Shown piece by piece: positions 2,759 to 8,864 of a stretch of DNA of 42,620 nucleotides (its first letter is position 1; each line of letters begins with the position of its first letter). The notes beneath the pieces were generated by a model. It was not told the origin of the DNA and ran no database searches. It saw only the letters and a program-made list of their open reading frames with translations. The DNA comes from Fidelibacterota bacterium. Its GTDB lineage: Bacteria > Fidelibacterota > Marinisomatia > Marinisomatales > UBA1611. Where the stretch lies: contig JABIHN010000011.1 of NCBI GenBank assembly GCA_018649625.1, forward strand, positions 1 through 42,620, given 5' to 3'. The translations under genes were made by a program, and so were the position numbers.

Positions 2759-3163
2759 TTAAGGCTTTTCAGCTAATTCCACCAAAACGCCACCCGTAGA
2801 TTTCGGATGGATAAATACAACTTTAAACCCTTCTGCGCCTATTAAATATTTATCAGTTAAAACTTGGATATTATTTTCTTTAAGTTCTTTTATTGCATTA
2901 GTTATATCATCTACTTCAAAACATACATGATGAATTCCTGACCCTTTTTTATCTATGAATTTAGAAATTGGCGAATCAGGTTTTAAAGATTCCAAGAGTT
3001 CAACTTTACCCTTTTGGGTATCATATATATCGGTGGTCACACCTTGACTTTCTACGGTTTCTGTAGAGTGATGTTTAATATTTAATATATGATTCCAAAA
3101 AGGAGAATCGTTCGCTAAATCATTTACGGCAATGCCGATATGTTCTATTCCTAGTATTTTCAT
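2759..3163 (-). CDS. mce: methylmalonyl-CoA epimerase
   Basis: Small vicinal-oxygen-chelate (glyoxalase fold) protein of 134 aa, the usual length for the enzyme interconverting (R)- and (S)-methylmalonyl-CoA on the propionyl-CoA/succinyl-CoA route. Two VOC half-modules are visible, starting with GIEHIGIAVNDL and GSGIHHVCFEVDD. Candidate metal ligands are His8, His78/79 and Glu129 (VLVELAE). The start ATG lacks a clear ribosome site. The mutase genes are not in the window. It lies 42 bases downstream of the enolase-superfamily epimerase, so it may share that transcript. Another VOC dehydratase or lyase is possible, but the C-terminal KSTGGVLVELAE pattern is typical of Mce. Confidence 0.88.
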   Translation of the reverse strand: MKILGIEHIGIAVNDLANDSPFWNHILNIKHHSTETVESQGVTTDIYDTQKGKVELLESLKPDSPISKFIDKKGSGIHHVCFEVDDITNAIKELKENNIQVLTDKYLIGAEGFKVVFIHPKSTGGVLVELAEKP

Positions 3164-3205: not shown

Positions 3206-4237
3206 TTATATTATATTGTCCGAGCTTGAATTTACGGTTAACCCTAATCCCGTTCCTTCAGGTAAAACTATTCTTCCATCTTTAATGCTTACACCGACAT
3301 AAGGGTCGTTGTTTATTAATAAGTTTCCATCTAAATCAACTTTATCTACTTCTCCGGCCAATTGGGCTGCCGCACTAATGCCAACTGAAGATTCCACCAT
3401 ACATCCCAACATAATTTTCATATCATAAAATCTAGCAAGATTAATCATTCGTTTCCCTTCTTCTAACGATCCACATTTCATTAGTTTTATATTTATACCA
3501 TCAAAAGCATTAATAATTTTCGGGATATCAGCTGAATTAATACTGTTTTCATCGGCATAAATATCTAAAGGACTTTTTGACTTTAAAACGGCTGTATTTT
3601 CTAATTGGTCAGCAGGAAAGGGTTGTTCAATAAATTCTACATTTTGATCAGCGAGCCATTTCGTTAAATCTAAAGCTGTCTCAGGATTCCATCCTTCATT
3701 GGCATCAATACGAATAAGCTTATCCGTATGTTTACGAATTTCAACCATAATTTCTTTATCTAAATTTGGTGTTCCCAATTTAACTTTTAATATAGAATAG
3801 GGTGCTGCTTCTTCAATTTTTTGTCCAATTTCACTTAACTCCCCAATAGCAATTGTAAAACTGGTGAGTGGCATTTTATCTGTATTCAATTCCAATAGAT
3901 CAAAAACAGACTTTTGTTGCTTTTGTGCAGCCCAATCCCATAATGCCATACTGAAAGCTGCTTCTAACGCTTTGATTCCATTCAATTGAGGAAGTACATG
4001 ATTCCATATAGACTCTCTTTGTGTACAATCTTCAGGAAGTTTAACTTTTTGTTTTAAAATAGATAAAATTCGCTCTGTGGACTCATTATACCTAAGAGAT
4101 GGAGCCGCTTCCCCTCTACCAATAATATCACCGTCAATAATGTAAATATAAACAATGTCGTACCAAGTATGAGAACTCCTCGCAATTCCAAAAGCATGTT
4201 TTAACTTAATCCGATAGGTTTTAAATATTAATTCCAT
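3206..4237 (-). CDS. enolase-superfamily dipeptide epimerase / DgcA-like N-acetyl-D-glutamate racemase
   Basis: Mandelate racemase/muconate-lactonizing subgroup of the enolase superfamily (343 aa). The capping domain occupies about 1-120, then the barrel carries the KxK pair Lys151/Lys153, metal ligands Asp178, Glu204 and Asp229, and the opposing lysine in IKLMKCG (Lys251 or Lys254). This two-lysine layout is that of 1,1-proton-transfer epimerases such as L-Ala-D/L-Glu epimerase. The gene overlaps the end of the DUF1611 gene by 10 bases, so translation is probably coupled. A DUF1611 protein next to such an epimerase is the arrangement of DgcN-DgcA, which converts D-glutamate to N-acetyl-L-glutamate. 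Murein-peptide epimerase remains the alternative role. Confidence 0.85.
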   Translation of the reverse strand: MELIFKTYRIKLKHAFGIARSSHTWYDIVYIYIIDGDIIGRGEAAPSLRYNESTERILSILKQKVKLPEDCTQRESIWNHVLPQLNGIKALEAAFSMALWDWAAQKQQKSVFDLLELNTDKMPLTSFTIAIGELSEIGQKIEEAAPYSILKVKLGTPNLDKEIMVEIRKHTDKLIRIDANEGWNPETALDLTKWLADQNVEFIEQPFPADQLENTAVLKSKSPLDIYADENSINSADIPKIINAFDGINIKLMKCGSLEEGKRMINLARFYDMKIMLGCMVESSVGISAAAQLAGEVDKVDLDGNLLINNDPYVGVSIKDGRIVLPEGTGLGLTVNSSSDNII

Positions 4238-5268
4238 TCATCTATTACCTTTTCTATATTTGTAATCATATCTTCCCCACCGAATCGAACTAAATCAGTA
4301 ACGGGTAAACTATATTTATCTTCAGCTAAAGTACATGTTTCCAAAGCTAATTGCTCCTTCAATTTTATTGTGAGATAATTCAACCCGATAAATATTGATT
4401 CTTTAAAAGGATTCATAAGATTAATATGCATATCCATCAATATTTTTAAATCTGGTATTGGGAAATCTGATACATCTAATTTTCGTCCAGGTTCATGAGT
4501 GAATATCAAAAAATCAGGCATACACCCATGAAGTAAACCAAGAGTTACACCTGAATATAACATATTATTTAAGGCGCCCTGACCTTCTACAATAGCCAAT
4601 TCTGTCTCAACCGGTAATTGATCCAAACAATACTCAATTTCGCCTGCCATAAAATCAGAAATTACTGCATCAACAGGAACACCATTTCCTGATAATAAAA
4701 TTCCGGTTTGTCCTGTACCAATAAATTCCACTCGTCTATTTCGTTTTTTTAAAGCATTTGTCAATTCCCACGCTGTGGTCATTTTACCTGAGTCACAGTC
4801 AGAACCAACAATGAGTAAGACAGGGAATTTCCTGTTTTCCCAGGTTCCTTTTGGAAAGTGGGGTGGTTTTGGTGGACGACGAAGATCTGTAATTGTTACA
4901 TTCATTTTTTGGGCTAAATCAGATAATTCTTTGTCGTCATTTAAAAAAGAATGCATTCCAGAGATAATATGGCACTTTGAATGTAAAGCATCAAGAATCT
5001 CATATCGAACTTTTTCAGTTAATTTTCCACCTTGAGGCGCTGTACCAATCACAAGATGAGTTGGAGACATTTTTTTAACATCAGAGAAAGATTCTACACA
5101 AGGAATAATTGGTCCCCACCCCAGAACTTGATCGGATGTTTTACCTTTTTGATTTGGATCAATAATTGCAATCACATCATCAGGACGATAGCGAATGAGT
5201 GCGTTCCCGGTTTTACTTAAAATATAATCAAATGCTCCAATAGCAAGAATTGCAATACGAGTCATCAT
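4228..5268 (-). CDS. DUF1611 P-loop protein, DgcN-like (putative D-glutamate N-acetyltransferase)
   Basis: DUF1611 family protein (346 aa): a Rossmann-like N-terminal domain to about residue 130, then a P-loop domain with GSDCDSGKMTT (155-165, Lys162), a GTGQTGILLSG loop (174-184) and VEGQGALNN near 227-235. The family was long annotated as unknown; members called DgcN N-acetylate D-glutamate and work with the epimerase DgcA. Here the epimerase gene follows with a 10-base overlap. The start ATG lies directly after the TAA stop of the enoyl-CoA hydratase gene, and a second ATG follows at once. Function is inferred from family and neighbour; substrate specificity cannot be read from the sequence. 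Confidence 0.82.
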   Translation of the reverse strand: MMTRIAILAIGAFDYILSKTGNALIRYRPDDVIAIIDPNQKGKTSDQVLGWGPIIPCVESFSDVKKMSPTHLVIGTAPQGGKLTEKVRYEILDALHSKCHIISGMHSFLNDDKELSDLAQKMNVTITDLRRPPKPPHFPKGTWENRKFPVLLIVGSDCDSGKMTTAWELTNALKKRNRRVEFIGTGQTGILLSGNGVPVDAVISDFMAGEIEYCLDQLPVETELAIVEGQGALNNMLYSGVTLGLLHGCMPDFLIFTHEPGRKLDVSDFPIPDLKILMDMHINLMNPFKESIFIGLNYLTIKLKEQLALETCTLAEDKYSLPVTDLVRFGGEDMITNIEKVIDEWN

Positions 5269-6039
5269 TTAACGGAAATTAGGTTTCCGTTTCTCTACAA
5301 ATGCAGTTAATCCTTCAGATGTTTCTTCTGTATCAAATAATTGGGTAAAAGTTTCTACTTCAAGATTCAATCCATCTTTCAATGTGTTACCTGAAGAAAA
5401 ATTGATACACTCTAATGATTTCGCAACACTATTGGGACCATTTTGTAAAATAAGATTGGCAAACTTGATTGTTTCATTTAAAAGCTGGTCTAAGGGGAAA
5501 ACTTTGTTAACCAATCCTATTCGGTTTGCTTCTTCTGCGTTGATCATTTGACCACCAATAATTAGTTCCATTGCAATACCTTTTCCTACTATTCTAGAAA
5601 GTCGCTGAGTGCCTCCCCATCCAGGAATCAAACCCAATTTTACTTCTGGTTGTGAAAACATGGCATTTTCGCTAGCAAATCGAATGTGACAAGCTAAACT
5701 TATTTCACATCCGCCACCCAAAGCAAAACCATTAATCGCTGCAATGACTGGTTTAGGTGAATTTTCAATAGTTAAAGTTAAATCCTGCCCTAATTTTCCA
5801 AAATCTTGAGCACCATCAAGATCTAATTGTTGCATGAGCTTAATATCTGCCCCAGCAATAAATGCTTTTTCGCCTGCACCTGTTAATACGATGACCCCTA
5901 CATCTTCATTAAGGATCATATTATTTAATGATTGACTTAATTCGCGAAGAACATCAGGATTCATAGCATTAAGTGCATCTGGACGATCAATCGTTAAAAT
6001 TCCAACTCGGTTTTGTATATCTGATTTAATATAATTCAT
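5269..6039 (-). CDS. enoyl-CoA hydratase / crotonase family
   Basis: Crotonase-fold enzyme of 256 aa, the normal length of a single-domain enoyl-CoA hydratase that adds water to trans-2-enoyl-CoA. The oxyanion-hole segments are AGADIK (62-67) and GGGCE (108-112). Both catalytic glutamates expected for a hydratase are present: Glu132 in QPEVKLGLIPGWGGTQRL and Glu158 in AMELIIGG. This favours true hydratase over isomerase or hydrolase relatives. It starts 6 bases after the trkH stop, and its own stop touches the ATG of the DUF1611 gene, so it is probably read from the trkA-trkH transcript. The chain length or pathway served (fatty acid, butanoyl-CoA or amino-acid breakdown) is not determinable. 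Confidence 0.92.
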   Translation of the reverse strand: MNYIKSDIQNRVGILTIDRPDALNAMNPDVLRELSQSLNNMILNEDVGVIVLTGAGEKAFIAGADIKLMQQLDLDGAQDFGKLGQDLTLTIENSPKPVIAAINGFALGGGCEISLACHIRFASENAMFSQPEVKLGLIPGWGGTQRLSRIVGKGIAMELIIGGQMINAEEANRIGLVNKVFPLDQLLNETIKFANLILQNGPNSVAKSLECINFSSGNTLKDGLNLEVETFTQLFDTEETSEGLTAFVEKRKPNFR

Positions 6040-6045
6040 ATTTCA

Positions 6046-7515
6046 TTATTTCCAAAAAGTACGACTAAAGAGAACCATCACAGTAAATATTTCTAATCTA
6101 CCTAATAACATACAAAAAGTAAGAACCCATTTTCCAGGTAGAGATAAAAGAGCATAATTGTCTGTAGGACCGAATTCATTCAAACCAGGTCCAATATTAC
6201 CCATGGCAGAAGCAGCGGCTCCAATAGCAGATTCAAGATCTAATCCCATGGTTGTTAGAACAATAGTAGAAATCATAAATGCAGACATAAAAAACAAGAA
6301 AAATCCCATTGTATTTTTGACCACATCTTCTTTAATTAATTGTTTGCCAATTCTAACAGGAATAAGTGCTCGCAAATGTAACATTCTTCGTGTTTCTAAA
6401 GCGGTATACTTCACCAACAGCATACAACGAATAACTTTCATTCCGCCACCTGTTGAGCCTCCCATTCCTCCTACAAACATTAAAGAGAGTAACACAGTTT
6501 GAGTAAAAACCGGCCACAATTCCCAATCTGCTGATCCAAAGCCAGTGGTTGTTAAAATACTCACCGATGCAAATAAAGACTCTCTAAAGTTTATTAAGGA
6601 AAATATATCTCCTTGCAAAGAAATAGCAAAAAATATTGAAACCGTAACTGCGATCGTACCACCAAAATAAACGAGAAATTCTTTATCTCTTAAATAGGAT
6701 TTAAAATCACCATTAATTGCTCGAAAATGGAGTGAAAAATTGATGCCCGCCAAAAACATAAAAAAGATAATGATGTAATGAATAACTGAACTATCGTAAA
6801 ACGCTATACTTGCATTTTTAGTTGAAAATCCACCCGTAGGCATTGTTGTTAAAGAATGACAGATTGAATCAAAAACATCCATTCCAGCAAGGCTTAACGC
6901 GATGGCTTCTACTGCTGTGATACCAACATATACTATCCAAAGGAATTTTGCAGTTTCTCGAACCCGCGGTGTAATTTTATCTGCAACTGGACCGGGGACT
7001 TCAGCCTTAAATAACTGAACACCACCCACGCCCAATAATGGAAGAATTGCAATATAAAAAACGACAATTCCCATACCACCAATCCATTGTATAAATGAAC
7101 GCCAAAATAAAATACCATGTGGTAAACTTTCAATTCCATTTGGAAGATTAGGAAGTGTAATAGGATTGCCTATTATAGTAGCGCCAGTTGTGGTAACACC
7201 AGACATTGATTCAAAAAAGGCATCTGTGATATTTGGAATTGCACCAGAAAAGTAAAAAGGCAATGCGCCTGCCACGGCTGTAATAATCCAGGAGAATGTT
7301 ACAATTGCAAACCCGTCACGATTGGTTAACGATCGATTGTGTTTTGTCAAACTCCAAATTGGTAATCCAATTCCAATACAAATCAACGATGAAACAAGAA
7401 ATCCATTTAAATCTGATTCGCCATACCCTAAAGAAATAAAAATAGGTACCACCATTGTGATACCTAAAATTGAAATAAGAGCCCCAAGTATATTCAGGAG
7501 TGTTTTAATTCTCAT
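6046..7515 (-). CDS. trkH: Trk potassium uptake protein TrkH
   Basis: Inner-membrane ion-conducting subunit of the Trk potassium uptake system (489 aa, about ten hydrophobic spans). The four selectivity-filter loops of the SKT family are recognisable: SGVTTTGATI, TTMPTGGFST, LTTTGFGSAD and AMGNIGPGLN, each carrying the filter glycine. The segment GGSTGGGMKVIR also matches TrkH. It overlaps the end of trkA by 4 bases, so the two subunits are translationally coupled. Length is normal and nothing looks broken. KtrB is a shorter relative; the length and the full-length two-domain TrkA partner favour Trk. Confidence 0.96.
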   Translation of the reverse strand: MRIKTLLNILGALISILGITMVVPIFISLGYGESDLNGFLVSSLICIGIGLPIWSLTKHNRSLTNRDGFAIVTFSWIITAVAGALPFYFSGAIPNITDAFFESMSGVTTTGATIIGNPITLPNLPNGIESLPHGILFWRSFIQWIGGMGIVVFYIAILPLLGVGGVQLFKAEVPGPVADKITPRVRETAKFLWIVYVGITAVEAIALSLAGMDVFDSICHSLTTMPTGGFSTKNASIAFYDSSVIHYIIIFFMFLAGINFSLHFRAINGDFKSYLRDKEFLVYFGGTIAVTVSIFFAISLQGDIFSLINFRESLFASVSILTTTGFGSADWELWPVFTQTVLLSLMFVGGMGGSTGGGMKVIRCMLLVKYTALETRRMLHLRALIPVRIGKQLIKEDVVKNTMGFFLFFMSAFMISTIVLTTMGLDLESAIGAAASAMGNIGPGLNEFGPTDNYALLSLPGKWVLTFCMLLGRLEIFTVMVLFSRTFWK

Positions 7516-8864
7516 GAGGTAAATAGTTTCTTTAGTTTATGGATCGCTTTTGGCTTTGCAAAAACTAAAGCGGTATCATCTTCAGTAAGAATAGATGTTC
7601 CATGTGCTATTCTAATTTTCCCATTATGATTTATTATACCAACGATACTATCTTTGGGGAAATTCAATTCTTTAAGTGGACGTTGAGTAACTGGGCTACC
7701 AGCTTCTGGTTGAAATTCAATCACATCGACATCAATTTCATCGAAGGTGACTACTGGTATTTCTGAAGCTTCTGTATGTAATTCTCGTAAAATTGAATTT
7801 ACGGTAGATAAATTTTTACTAATGACAGCACCAACGCCAATTTCTTGGATGGTCGGAATATGTTCCGTTGTAGAGATATGAATAATACTTTGCTTGGCCC
7901 CCAAATGTTTAGCCAATAATCCAGCAATAAGATTCGTTTTTTCATCTTCAGTTACAGTAATAAAACTATCAACATCTTGAATGTTTTCTGATTTTAAAAA
8001 TTCTATATCAGTCCCATCTCCATAGACAATCATAGCATCATCAATATTATCTGCAATACGCAAAGCTTTTAATCTATTATAATCAACAAGTCGAACATTG
8101 ATGTTTTCACTCGGTAATGCAATTGCAAGAGAGCGACCAATTTTTGATCCGCCAATTATCATAACACGATGCGTTTTTGTAGCTTCCTTACACAGCAATC
8201 CAAGAAGGTTTTCAATATCTTCCGTCTTTATGATAAAATAGCCAATATCACCATCTTTAAATTTAAAATCAGCCCAAGGTACAATGGTTTCTTGTCCACG
8301 AAGAACTGCGATTACACCAAATCTAAAATGACTATTTTCAAGACAAACATTTCCTAAAGGATGGCCATTAAGGTTTTCACAATTCCCATCTATTCTGAGC
8401 CCTAGCATTGTAAGGCGTCCAGATTCAAAATCCATAACCTGAACAGCATATGGATGTTTGACCAATCGCATAATTTCTTCGCAAGCAACTTTTTCTGGAT
8501 GAATGACTATATCTATACCAAATTTTTCAGGACGGATAATAGAATCATGAGCTGTGTATTGTTGATTTCGCAATCTCGCAATAACCTTATTTGCACCCAA
8601 TTTATGGGCTTGTTGGGATGCAATTAAATTAACTTCATCAACTTTAGTTAAACACAAAACATAGTCAGCTTCACCTACATGCGCTTCAGTGAGTGTTTTG
8701 GGACTCGCTCCATTCCCTTTTACAGTACTGACATCTAAATTTTGAGATACACGGCTACACTTTACAGGATCAATATCGATAACCGTTATATCATAATTTT
8801 CTTCACTTAGGGCTTTAGCAACATGGAAACCCACTTCACCACCACCAATAATTATTACCTTCAT
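7512..8864 (-). CDS. trkA: Trk system NAD-binding regulatory subunit TrkA
   Basis: Cytosolic gating ring subunit of the Trk potassium transporter (450 aa). It has the duplicated RCK layout: first Rossmann domain with GGGEVG (7-12) and acidic Asp30 for the nucleotide ribose, a first TrkA_C domain (about 140-215), a second Rossmann domain with GGSKIG (238-243) and Asp261, and a final TrkA_C domain (about 365-450). It is the first gene of the trkA-trkH pair. A 63-base gap separates it from murA, where the minus strand shows only an A/T-rich AAAAAGCTTTTT palindrome as a weak termination candidate. Confidence 0.96.
   Translation of the reverse strand: MKVIIIGGGEVGFHVAKALSEENYDITVIDIDPVKCSRVSQNLDVSTVKGNGASPKTLTEAHVGEADYVLCLTKVDEVNLIASQQAHKLGANKVIARLRNQQYTAHDSIIRPEKFGIDIVIHPEKVACEEIMRLVKHPYAVQVMDFESGRLTMLGLRIDGNCENLNGHPLGNVCLENSHFRFGVIAVLRGQETIVPWADFKFKDGDIGYFIIKTEDIENLLGLLCKEATKTHRVMIIGGSKIGRSLAIALPSENINVRLVDYNRLKALRIADNIDDAMIVYGDGTDIEFLKSENIQDVDSFITVTEDEKTNLIAGLLAKHLGAKQSIIHISTTEHIPTIQEIGVGAVISKNLSTVNSILRELHTEASEIPVVTFDEIDVDVIEFQPEAGSPVTQRPLKELNFPKDSIVGIINHNGKIRIAHGTSILTEDDTALVFAKPKAIHKLKKLFTS

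Follow-up and report, generated by a model that had tools for sequence, protein, structure and literature searches.

A gene for a DUF1611 protein and a gene for an enolase-superfamily epimerase (together, the window pair, at 3206-5268) lie side by side in the 42,620-nucleotide stretch of JABIHN010000011.1 (GCA_018649625.1) analysed here, which we call the window and which belongs to a marine bacterium of the Neomarinimicrobiota. What do the two proteins do together? The preliminary description saw in them two genes overlapping by 10 bases, and the reading frames and Pfam agree (Table 1); it went on to propose D-glutamate catabolism, which on the comparisons below is possible. The DUF1611 protein matches DUF1611 (178.2 bits) and DUF1611_N (79.2 bits), both above the cut-off, and the epimerase matches MR_MLE_C at 115.6 bits (cut-off 29.4) and MR_MLE_N at 21 bits, just below the cut-off of 22. 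Both genes belong to a minus-strand run of genes for TrkA, TrkH, an enoyl-CoA hydratase-family protein, the DUF1611 protein, the epimerase, methylmalonyl-CoA epimerase and UvrC, in which the hydratase-family and DUF1611 genes abut with no gap. The same run is present again in loci of the same genus and family. One same-genus locus, L097, encodes proteins with 80% and 72% identity to the two of the window and keeps their gene order and 10-base overlap, so the pair is not a product of chance. No amino-acid transporter, deacylase or D-amino-acid gene was recognised among the genes adjoining it. A promoter scan found 22 promoter-like sites where 28.6 were expected, and 7 terminator-like sites where 3.5 were expected.

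Table 1. Features of the window pair and its neighbours, with positions counted from the first letter of the window
Feature	Positions	Strand	Evidence
Enolase-superfamily epimerase, 343 aa	3206..4237	minus	Pfam, NCBIfam, PDB match, trees, Foldseek
DUF1611 protein, 346 aa, DgcN-like fold, outside DgcN clade	4228..5268	minus	Pfam, NCBIfam, tree, Foldseek
Overlap of epimerase and DUF1611 genes, 10 bases	4228..4237	minus	Same overlap in same-genus locus L097
P-loop GSDCDSGKMTT, residues 155-165, DUF1611 protein	4774..4806	minus	Motif common to DgcN, 2obn, 2g0t
KxK motif K151, K153, epimerase	3779..3787	minus	Invariant in alignment A2
DxD motif D301, D303, epimerase	3329..3337	minus	Invariant in A2; true DgcA also has DxD
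Enoyl-CoA hydratase-family gene, directly upstream of pair	5269..6039	minus	Pfam ECH_1 239.8 bits
Methylmalonyl-CoA epimerase gene, downstream of pair	2759..3163	minus	TIGR03081 140.9 bits, cut-off 114.95
TrkA	7512-8864	minus	
TrkH	6046-7515	minus	
UvrC	819-2660	minus	

The known system for comparison is the DgcN-DgcA pathway of Ruegeria, Pseudoalteromonas and Vibrio (structure 7xrj), reportedly described in a 2023 paper in ISME J. Like the window pair, it consists of a DUF1611 gene and then an enolase-superfamily racemase gene that touch or overlap, and the folds and core motifs, including the core DUF1611 motifs shared by DgcN and the window protein, are the same. It differs in sequence, the window proteins having 26-32% identity with DgcA and 30-33% with DgcN in the alignment and falling outside both clades, and in setting, as neither dgcR nor a gene for D-amino-acid metabolism is found beside the window pair.

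The AlphaFold model of the DUF1611 protein (mean pLDDT 93.8) has the DUF1611 fold with the P-loop that a DgcN should have. Its best NCBIfam match is the DgcN model NF041892, at 217.8 bits against a cut-off of 480; the Ruegeria and Pseudoalteromonas proteins score 551 and 493 bits. By Foldseek the model is closer to 2obn (TM 0.92) than to DgcN 7xrj (TM 0.79), although 7xrj gives the best E-value; 2obn and 2g0t, two DUF1611 structures of unknown function, share the fold. In a 34-row tree, DgcN, 7xrj and two of six DgcN-like copies form a clade (100/100) on a long branch with the window protein outside it, in a clade with Ignavibacteria proteins (99/97). A joint clade of DgcN and the window-type DUF1611 proteins is not rejected (p-AU 0.0717).

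Across 199 Neomarinimicrobiota genomes there is no DgcN or DgcA match over the cut-off. Six of them encode a second DUF1611 protein close to DgcN (448-471 bits), and the window type is present in all six as well, which makes the two forms paralogous in these genomes. In these six loci (L091-L096) the near-DgcN gene adjoins a gene for a membrane protein that has no Pfam match over the cut-off and is presumably a YkvI-like transporter. In five of the six the opposite neighbour is an amidohydrolase gene (one scanned), and none of the six has a frame labelled as resembling the window epimerase. A third DUF1611-epimerase pair occurs beside a predicted transporter of the same type in two same-order loci (L204, L205), and at L206:1665-4480 a low-scoring DUF1611 gene is found beside a fusion of alanine-racemase-like and M15/VanY-type D-Ala peptidase domains.

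The best NCBIfam match of the epimerase (AlphaFold model, mean pLDDT 90.9) is the DgcA model NF042940, at 215.2 bits and below the equivalog cut-off of 400. The DgcA proteins of Ruegeria, Vibrio pelagius and Pseudoalteromonas reach 508, 416 and 402 bits, and the dipeptide epimerases of E. coli (YcjG), B. finegoldii and Deinococcus 424, 222 and 238 bits. Since dipeptide epimerases score equally well or better, we dropped this score as a sign of DgcA; a value of 215 bits shows no more than a resemblance to dipeptide epimerases. YcjG (L067:1465-2430) exceeds the cut-off, which does not separate it from DgcA. On the L-Ala-D/L-Glu epimerase model NF011708 the window epimerase obtains 147 of 343 bits, and the B. 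finegoldii dipeptide epimerase also falls short, at 154.

Among solved structures, the window epimerase is closest to the Bacteroides dipeptide epimerase (3iji and 3ijq, both with L-Ala-D-Glu in the PDB title), with 40% identity and the KLMKC and DLDGN motifs in both. In a PDB sequence search 3iji led with 217 bits, followed by 1jpd with 123, and Foldseek returned 3iji and 3ijq as the top matches (TM 0.91/0.93). The Bacteroides relative is encoded beside a C40 peptidase gene with no DUF1611 annotated nearby, unlike the window epimerase. The L-Ala-D/L-Glu epimerases of E. coli (YcjG) and B. subtilis (1jpd, 1jpm) have the same catalytic residues and belong to the same family. The window protein keeps the KxK, which we take to be catalytic from what is known of the enolase superfamily, as well as the acidic metal ligands and the DxD. 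None of these discriminates, because DgcA has them all, and DxD was accordingly dropped as a means of telling DgcA from dipeptide epimerases. An Arg equivalent to E. coli R24, presumably the ligand of the Glu side chain, is also present; it is not decisive, since 3iji, the closest solved dipeptide epimerase, has Thr at that position. Taken with its relatives, these residues fit the inversion of N-acylated or N-aminoacylated Glu.

A 36-row tree unites DgcA, YcjG and 4gfi in a clade (100/100) and leaves the window epimerase outside it, grouped with 3iji, B. finegoldii and NlpC-linked proteins (96/93). A 44-row tree concurs, with the window epimerase on the 3iji side (95/94). Holding the 12-row window clade together with DgcA, YcjG and 4gfi costs 9.5 log units and is not rejected (p-AU 0.169), which leaves the sister group of the window clade, 3iji or the DgcA clade, unsettled. 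Two further constraints were uninformative. The first, which joined the window protein alone to DgcA, YcjG and 4gfi and split it from its own close relatives, was bound to fail and was set aside (p-AU 0.00121); the other, with only the window clade, 3iji and B. finegoldii, has the same flaw (p-AU 2.5e-56). The Agrobacterium structure 4gfi, a dipeptide-epimerase homologue to which no function is assigned, sits with Ruegeria DgcA in the trees and may itself be a DgcA.

The preliminary description had placed the two proteins in the DgcN and DgcA families. This was not borne out, as their scores are about half of the equivalog cut-offs and both lie outside the 100/100 clades of DgcN and DgcA. The clustering with L-Ala-D/L-Glu epimerases that would tell against its reading is seen only in part: the best tree places the protein with the Bacteroides L-Ala-D-Glu epimerase, but a sister relation to DgcA and YcjG withstands the test just given. 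True but very divergent orthologues of DgcN and DgcA, overlooked by the NCBIfam models, would share the family pair and gene order and have DgcN and DgcA as top NCBIfam matches, as observed, and the joint clades were rejected for neither protein (p-AU 0.169 for the epimerase, 0.072 for DUF1611). We nevertheless consider such orthology very improbable, given that YcjG, which is not a DgcA, sits within the DgcA clade while the window protein does not, and that the near-DgcN copy and the window type are paralogues in six genomes. From the sequences, the window pair is probably a variant of the D-glutamate enzyme pair that stands outside both of its families.

How regularly the two genes occur together was surveyed in the same 199 genomes, with genes called adjoining when fewer than 400 bases separate the matched stretches. 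Window-type DUF1611 copies number 79, in 79 genomes, and 58 of them adjoin an epimerase gene. One gene intervenes in a further 10, the epimerase lies further along the same contig in two, and the two genes are on separate contigs in six genomes. No epimerase was found in the remaining three, whose genomes are 73-82% complete. Conversely, an epimerase occurs without any DUF1611 match in 32 of the 111 epimerase-bearing genomes; within the window's own order this is so in 9 of 64 (a count that excludes G061, outside the order), four of the nine being 91-94% complete. Tight coupling of the two genes, and its conservation across the phylum, is thus supported. The epimerase seems able to do without its DUF1611 partner, whereas the DUF1611 protein is seldom found without the epimerase.

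The genes around and between the pair in relatives bear on the substrate. Seven of the 10 one-gene-between loci were read (G106, G104, G130, G186, G117, G072, G114), and the intervening gene encodes a gamma-glutamyltransferase in all seven. One of these was scanned (PF01019, 344 bits) and the other six were assigned by similarity; the copies examined have a TTH motif. In the two loci where the epimerase lies further along, genes for a gamma-glutamyltransferase and an M14 peptidase are among those in between, and one of the two loci adds a penicillin amidase gene. In four loci (L137, L141, L144, L150) the stretch with the DUF1611 gene and the gamma-glutamyltransferase gene also contains a SusC/SusD-like outer-membrane pair, scanned only in L141.

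After the pair, L103 has a PBP4-type D-Ala-D-Ala carboxypeptidase gene (scanned), and similarity identifies one at that place in L104, L160 and L182 as well; an NlpC/P60-type peptidase gene lies beside the epimerase gene in the Bacteroides and Deinococcus records and in two of the 10 DUF1611-free phylum loci read (L107, L109). A serious rival reading is that of a plain murein-peptide epimerase, which would turn L-Ala-D-Glu into L-Ala-L-Glu for a dipeptidase, with some other role for the DUF1611 protein. Besides these peptidases, it can point to the Bacteroides enzyme crystallised with L-Ala-D-Glu, which is both the top sequence and fold match and the neighbour in the tree, and to the 9 of 64 own-order genomes that retain an epimerase in the absence of a DUF1611 match. 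It does not explain why a DUF1611 gene overlaps the epimerase gene and is conserved beside it (58 of 79 adjoining), and NlpC/P60 genes are missing beside the window pair and in the other eight of the 10 DUF1611-free loci read. On balance we find this reading doubtful. A residue signature of DUF1611-linked epimerases was also sought and rejected: eight alignment columns (e.g. N231-S232) split nine in-operon epimerases from four NlpC-linked ones and, with the exception of one of five at column 47, are absent in five DUF1611-linked epimerases of other phyla. N231 is also present in G093, a genome in which no DUF1611 was found.

We tentatively favour, with somewhat less than even confidence, a two-protein module that works like DgcN-DgcA and comes from other branches of both families, in which a D-amino acid, probably D-Glu, is capped and then inverted. 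The DUF1611 protein would acylate a free D-amino acid at its amino group, the acyl cap probably being acetyl and its donor acetyl-CoA. The amino acid would most likely be D-glutamate, released from murein or from gamma-glutamyl peptides. Such a cap would stand in for the L-Ala of L-Ala-D-Glu and so allow a dipeptide-type epimerase to invert the alpha carbon of the capped amino acid, after which a deacylase would release the L-amino acid as the last step. Supply of a capped substrate by the DUF1611 protein is the simplest account of an epimerase that dispenses with DUF1611 and a DUF1611 protein that rarely occurs without an epimerase; the epimerase may retain an older dipeptide role beside it.

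The pairing, the lineages, the modelled folds, the retained catalytic residues and the gamma-glutamyltransferase genes in relatives' operons are the observed basis of this module. Acyl transfer and the direction of the pathway we infer, as we do acetyl as the cap and D-Glu as the substrate, the latter two from the analogy with DgcN-DgcA and the gamma-glutamyltransferase of relatives. We count in favour of the capping module the pairing (58/79), the asymmetry in occurrence (32/111 versus 3/79), the gamma-glutamyltransferase between the genes and the pairs in other phyla, together with an epimerase co-present in 10 of 10 genomes (below), the shared DUF1611 motifs, the fold match to 7xrj, KxK, DxD and the R24-equivalent Arg. 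Against it we count that neither protein is in a clade with demonstrated activity and that the nearest epimerase structure is that of a dipeptide epimerase; that the gamma-glutamyltransferase lies outside the window operon, where no transporter, deacylase or D-amino-acid neighbour was recognised; and that Ignavibacteria DUF1611 genes lie near lysine genes, with unlinked epimerases on the 3iji side, and that 6 of 79 genomes have the genes on split contigs.

A scan of genome contigs extended the comparison to other phyla. Its best 80 loci divide by assigned label into 44 Neomarinimicrobiota-like loci (a few of which bear other labels, including one Rhodobacteraceae) and 36 others. An epimerase adjoins DUF1611 in 23 of the 44, is in the same locus in 10 and is absent in 11; the corresponding counts for the 36 are 6, 1 and 24, with no DUF1611 frame called in five. 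The seven out-of-phylum pairs among these best 80 loci belong to Planctomycetota, including Brocadia, Gemmatimonadota and Chloroflexota. An M20 peptidase gene follows the pair in L192 and L194 (one scanned).

Sister DUF1611 genes of Ignavibacteria have a different setting, near lysine genes and without an epimerase nearby. Within the best 80 loci, lysC or lysA is in the stretch of the sister DUF1611 gene in 13 of the 36 out-of-phylum loci, all labelled Ignavibacteria or Bacteroidota. More generally in L157-L184 (e.g. L167:5965-12314), such genes are often near lysC, lysA and a semialdehyde dehydrogenase gene, the last (asd-like) being the label of a loose cluster with two members scanned. In 10 of 10 DUF1611-bearing Ignavibacteria/Bacteroidota genomes there is an unlinked epimerase 43-48% identical to that of the window (one has a stop), a figure that has no base rate, as the genomes were picked for lysine-type neighbours and all bear DUF1611. 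Six of the 10 have a second epimerase, 36-40% identical. The tree included four of the 43-48% epimerases and three of the 36-40% ones; every one of them falls on the 3iji side and not with the window protein, the three at 36-40% clustering tightly with 3iji itself. The unlinked epimerase gene sits in a conserved run with genes for a CDP-alcohol phosphatidyltransferase, an SRP54-type GTPase and MutL (L221-L230), and a methylmalonyl-CoA mutase gene is near it in 8 of 10 Ignavibacteria stretches (one member scanned).

These neighbourhoods invite the thought that capping and inversion, or some related logic, act on another substrate, such as D-Asp, a lysine-pathway or diaminopimelate compound, a product of CoA-ester metabolism or another N-acyl compound. 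The lysC and lysA genes of those 13 loci and the mutase of those eight stretches would agree with this, as would the enoyl-CoA hydratase and methylmalonyl-CoA epimerase genes that flank the window pair. We think it quite unlikely: the gamma-glutamyltransferase of relatives points to Glu, and no lysine step is obviously missing where a DapD-like match is present. Such a near full-length match occurs in 8 of the 10 genomes (195-221 bits against a cut-off of 375, three flagged with a stop), and DapL and DapH have no match over the cut-off in the 10. DUF1611 as a missing lysine enzyme of Ignavibacteria/Bacteroidota was therefore rejected, no gap being evident in those eight.

If the favoured capping module is generalised, DUF1611 proteins would form a capping family that makes free D-amino acids dipeptide-like for several separate epimerase lineages, namely the YcjG-like DgcA, the 3iji-like window type, those of Planctomycetota/Gemmatimonadota and of Chloroflexota, and the third type in Neomarinimicrobiota. 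This spread would have arisen by repeated recruitment or repeated loss, and in Neomarinimicrobiota the gamma-glutamyltransferase would add the harvest of gamma-D-glutamyl peptides. We regard this extension as speculative and rather unlikely.

The distinction matters for surveys of D-glutamate use. A survey in mSystems (2025; PMC12363236) lists Marinisomatia among significant dgcN carriers and defines dgcN by more than 30% identity, more than 70% coverage and KO filters. By tblastn, the window DUF1611 protein is 34.1% identical to the annotated V. pelagius DgcN over 94% of its length and 35.9% identical to Pseudoalteromonas DgcN over 81%, and it could therefore count as dgcN there. The pathway is also mentioned for Shewanella and a Rhodobacteraceae strain in two other papers (PMC10845958, PMC11747546). 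If the capping module is true, proteins that escape the present equivalog models would extend D-glutamate use across a marine phylum; if the window holds merely a dipeptide epimerase and an unrelated neighbour, some of the genes counted as dgcN in marine surveys at about 30% identity may encode something else.

The window genome itself (2.39 Mb in 115 contigs, 93% complete) encodes one DUF1611 protein. It has no match to ArgJ, and N-acetyl-L-Glu for arginine synthesis via ArgJ was set aside as a role on that search, which covered ArgJ only. Its single NlpC/P60 protein is encoded on another contig, away from the pair, and so is its single gamma-glutamyltransferase. The organism plausibly handles gamma-glutamyl and D-acidic amino acids, but these genes have no physical link to the window pair. 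The gamma-glutamyltransferase gene is clustered (L202; G000:C34:8000-26000) with genes for a TonB receptor, an Asp/Glu racemase-family protein, an aminotransferase, an asparaginase_2 and an M20 peptidase; this cluster may be devoted to D-acidic or isopeptide amino acids.
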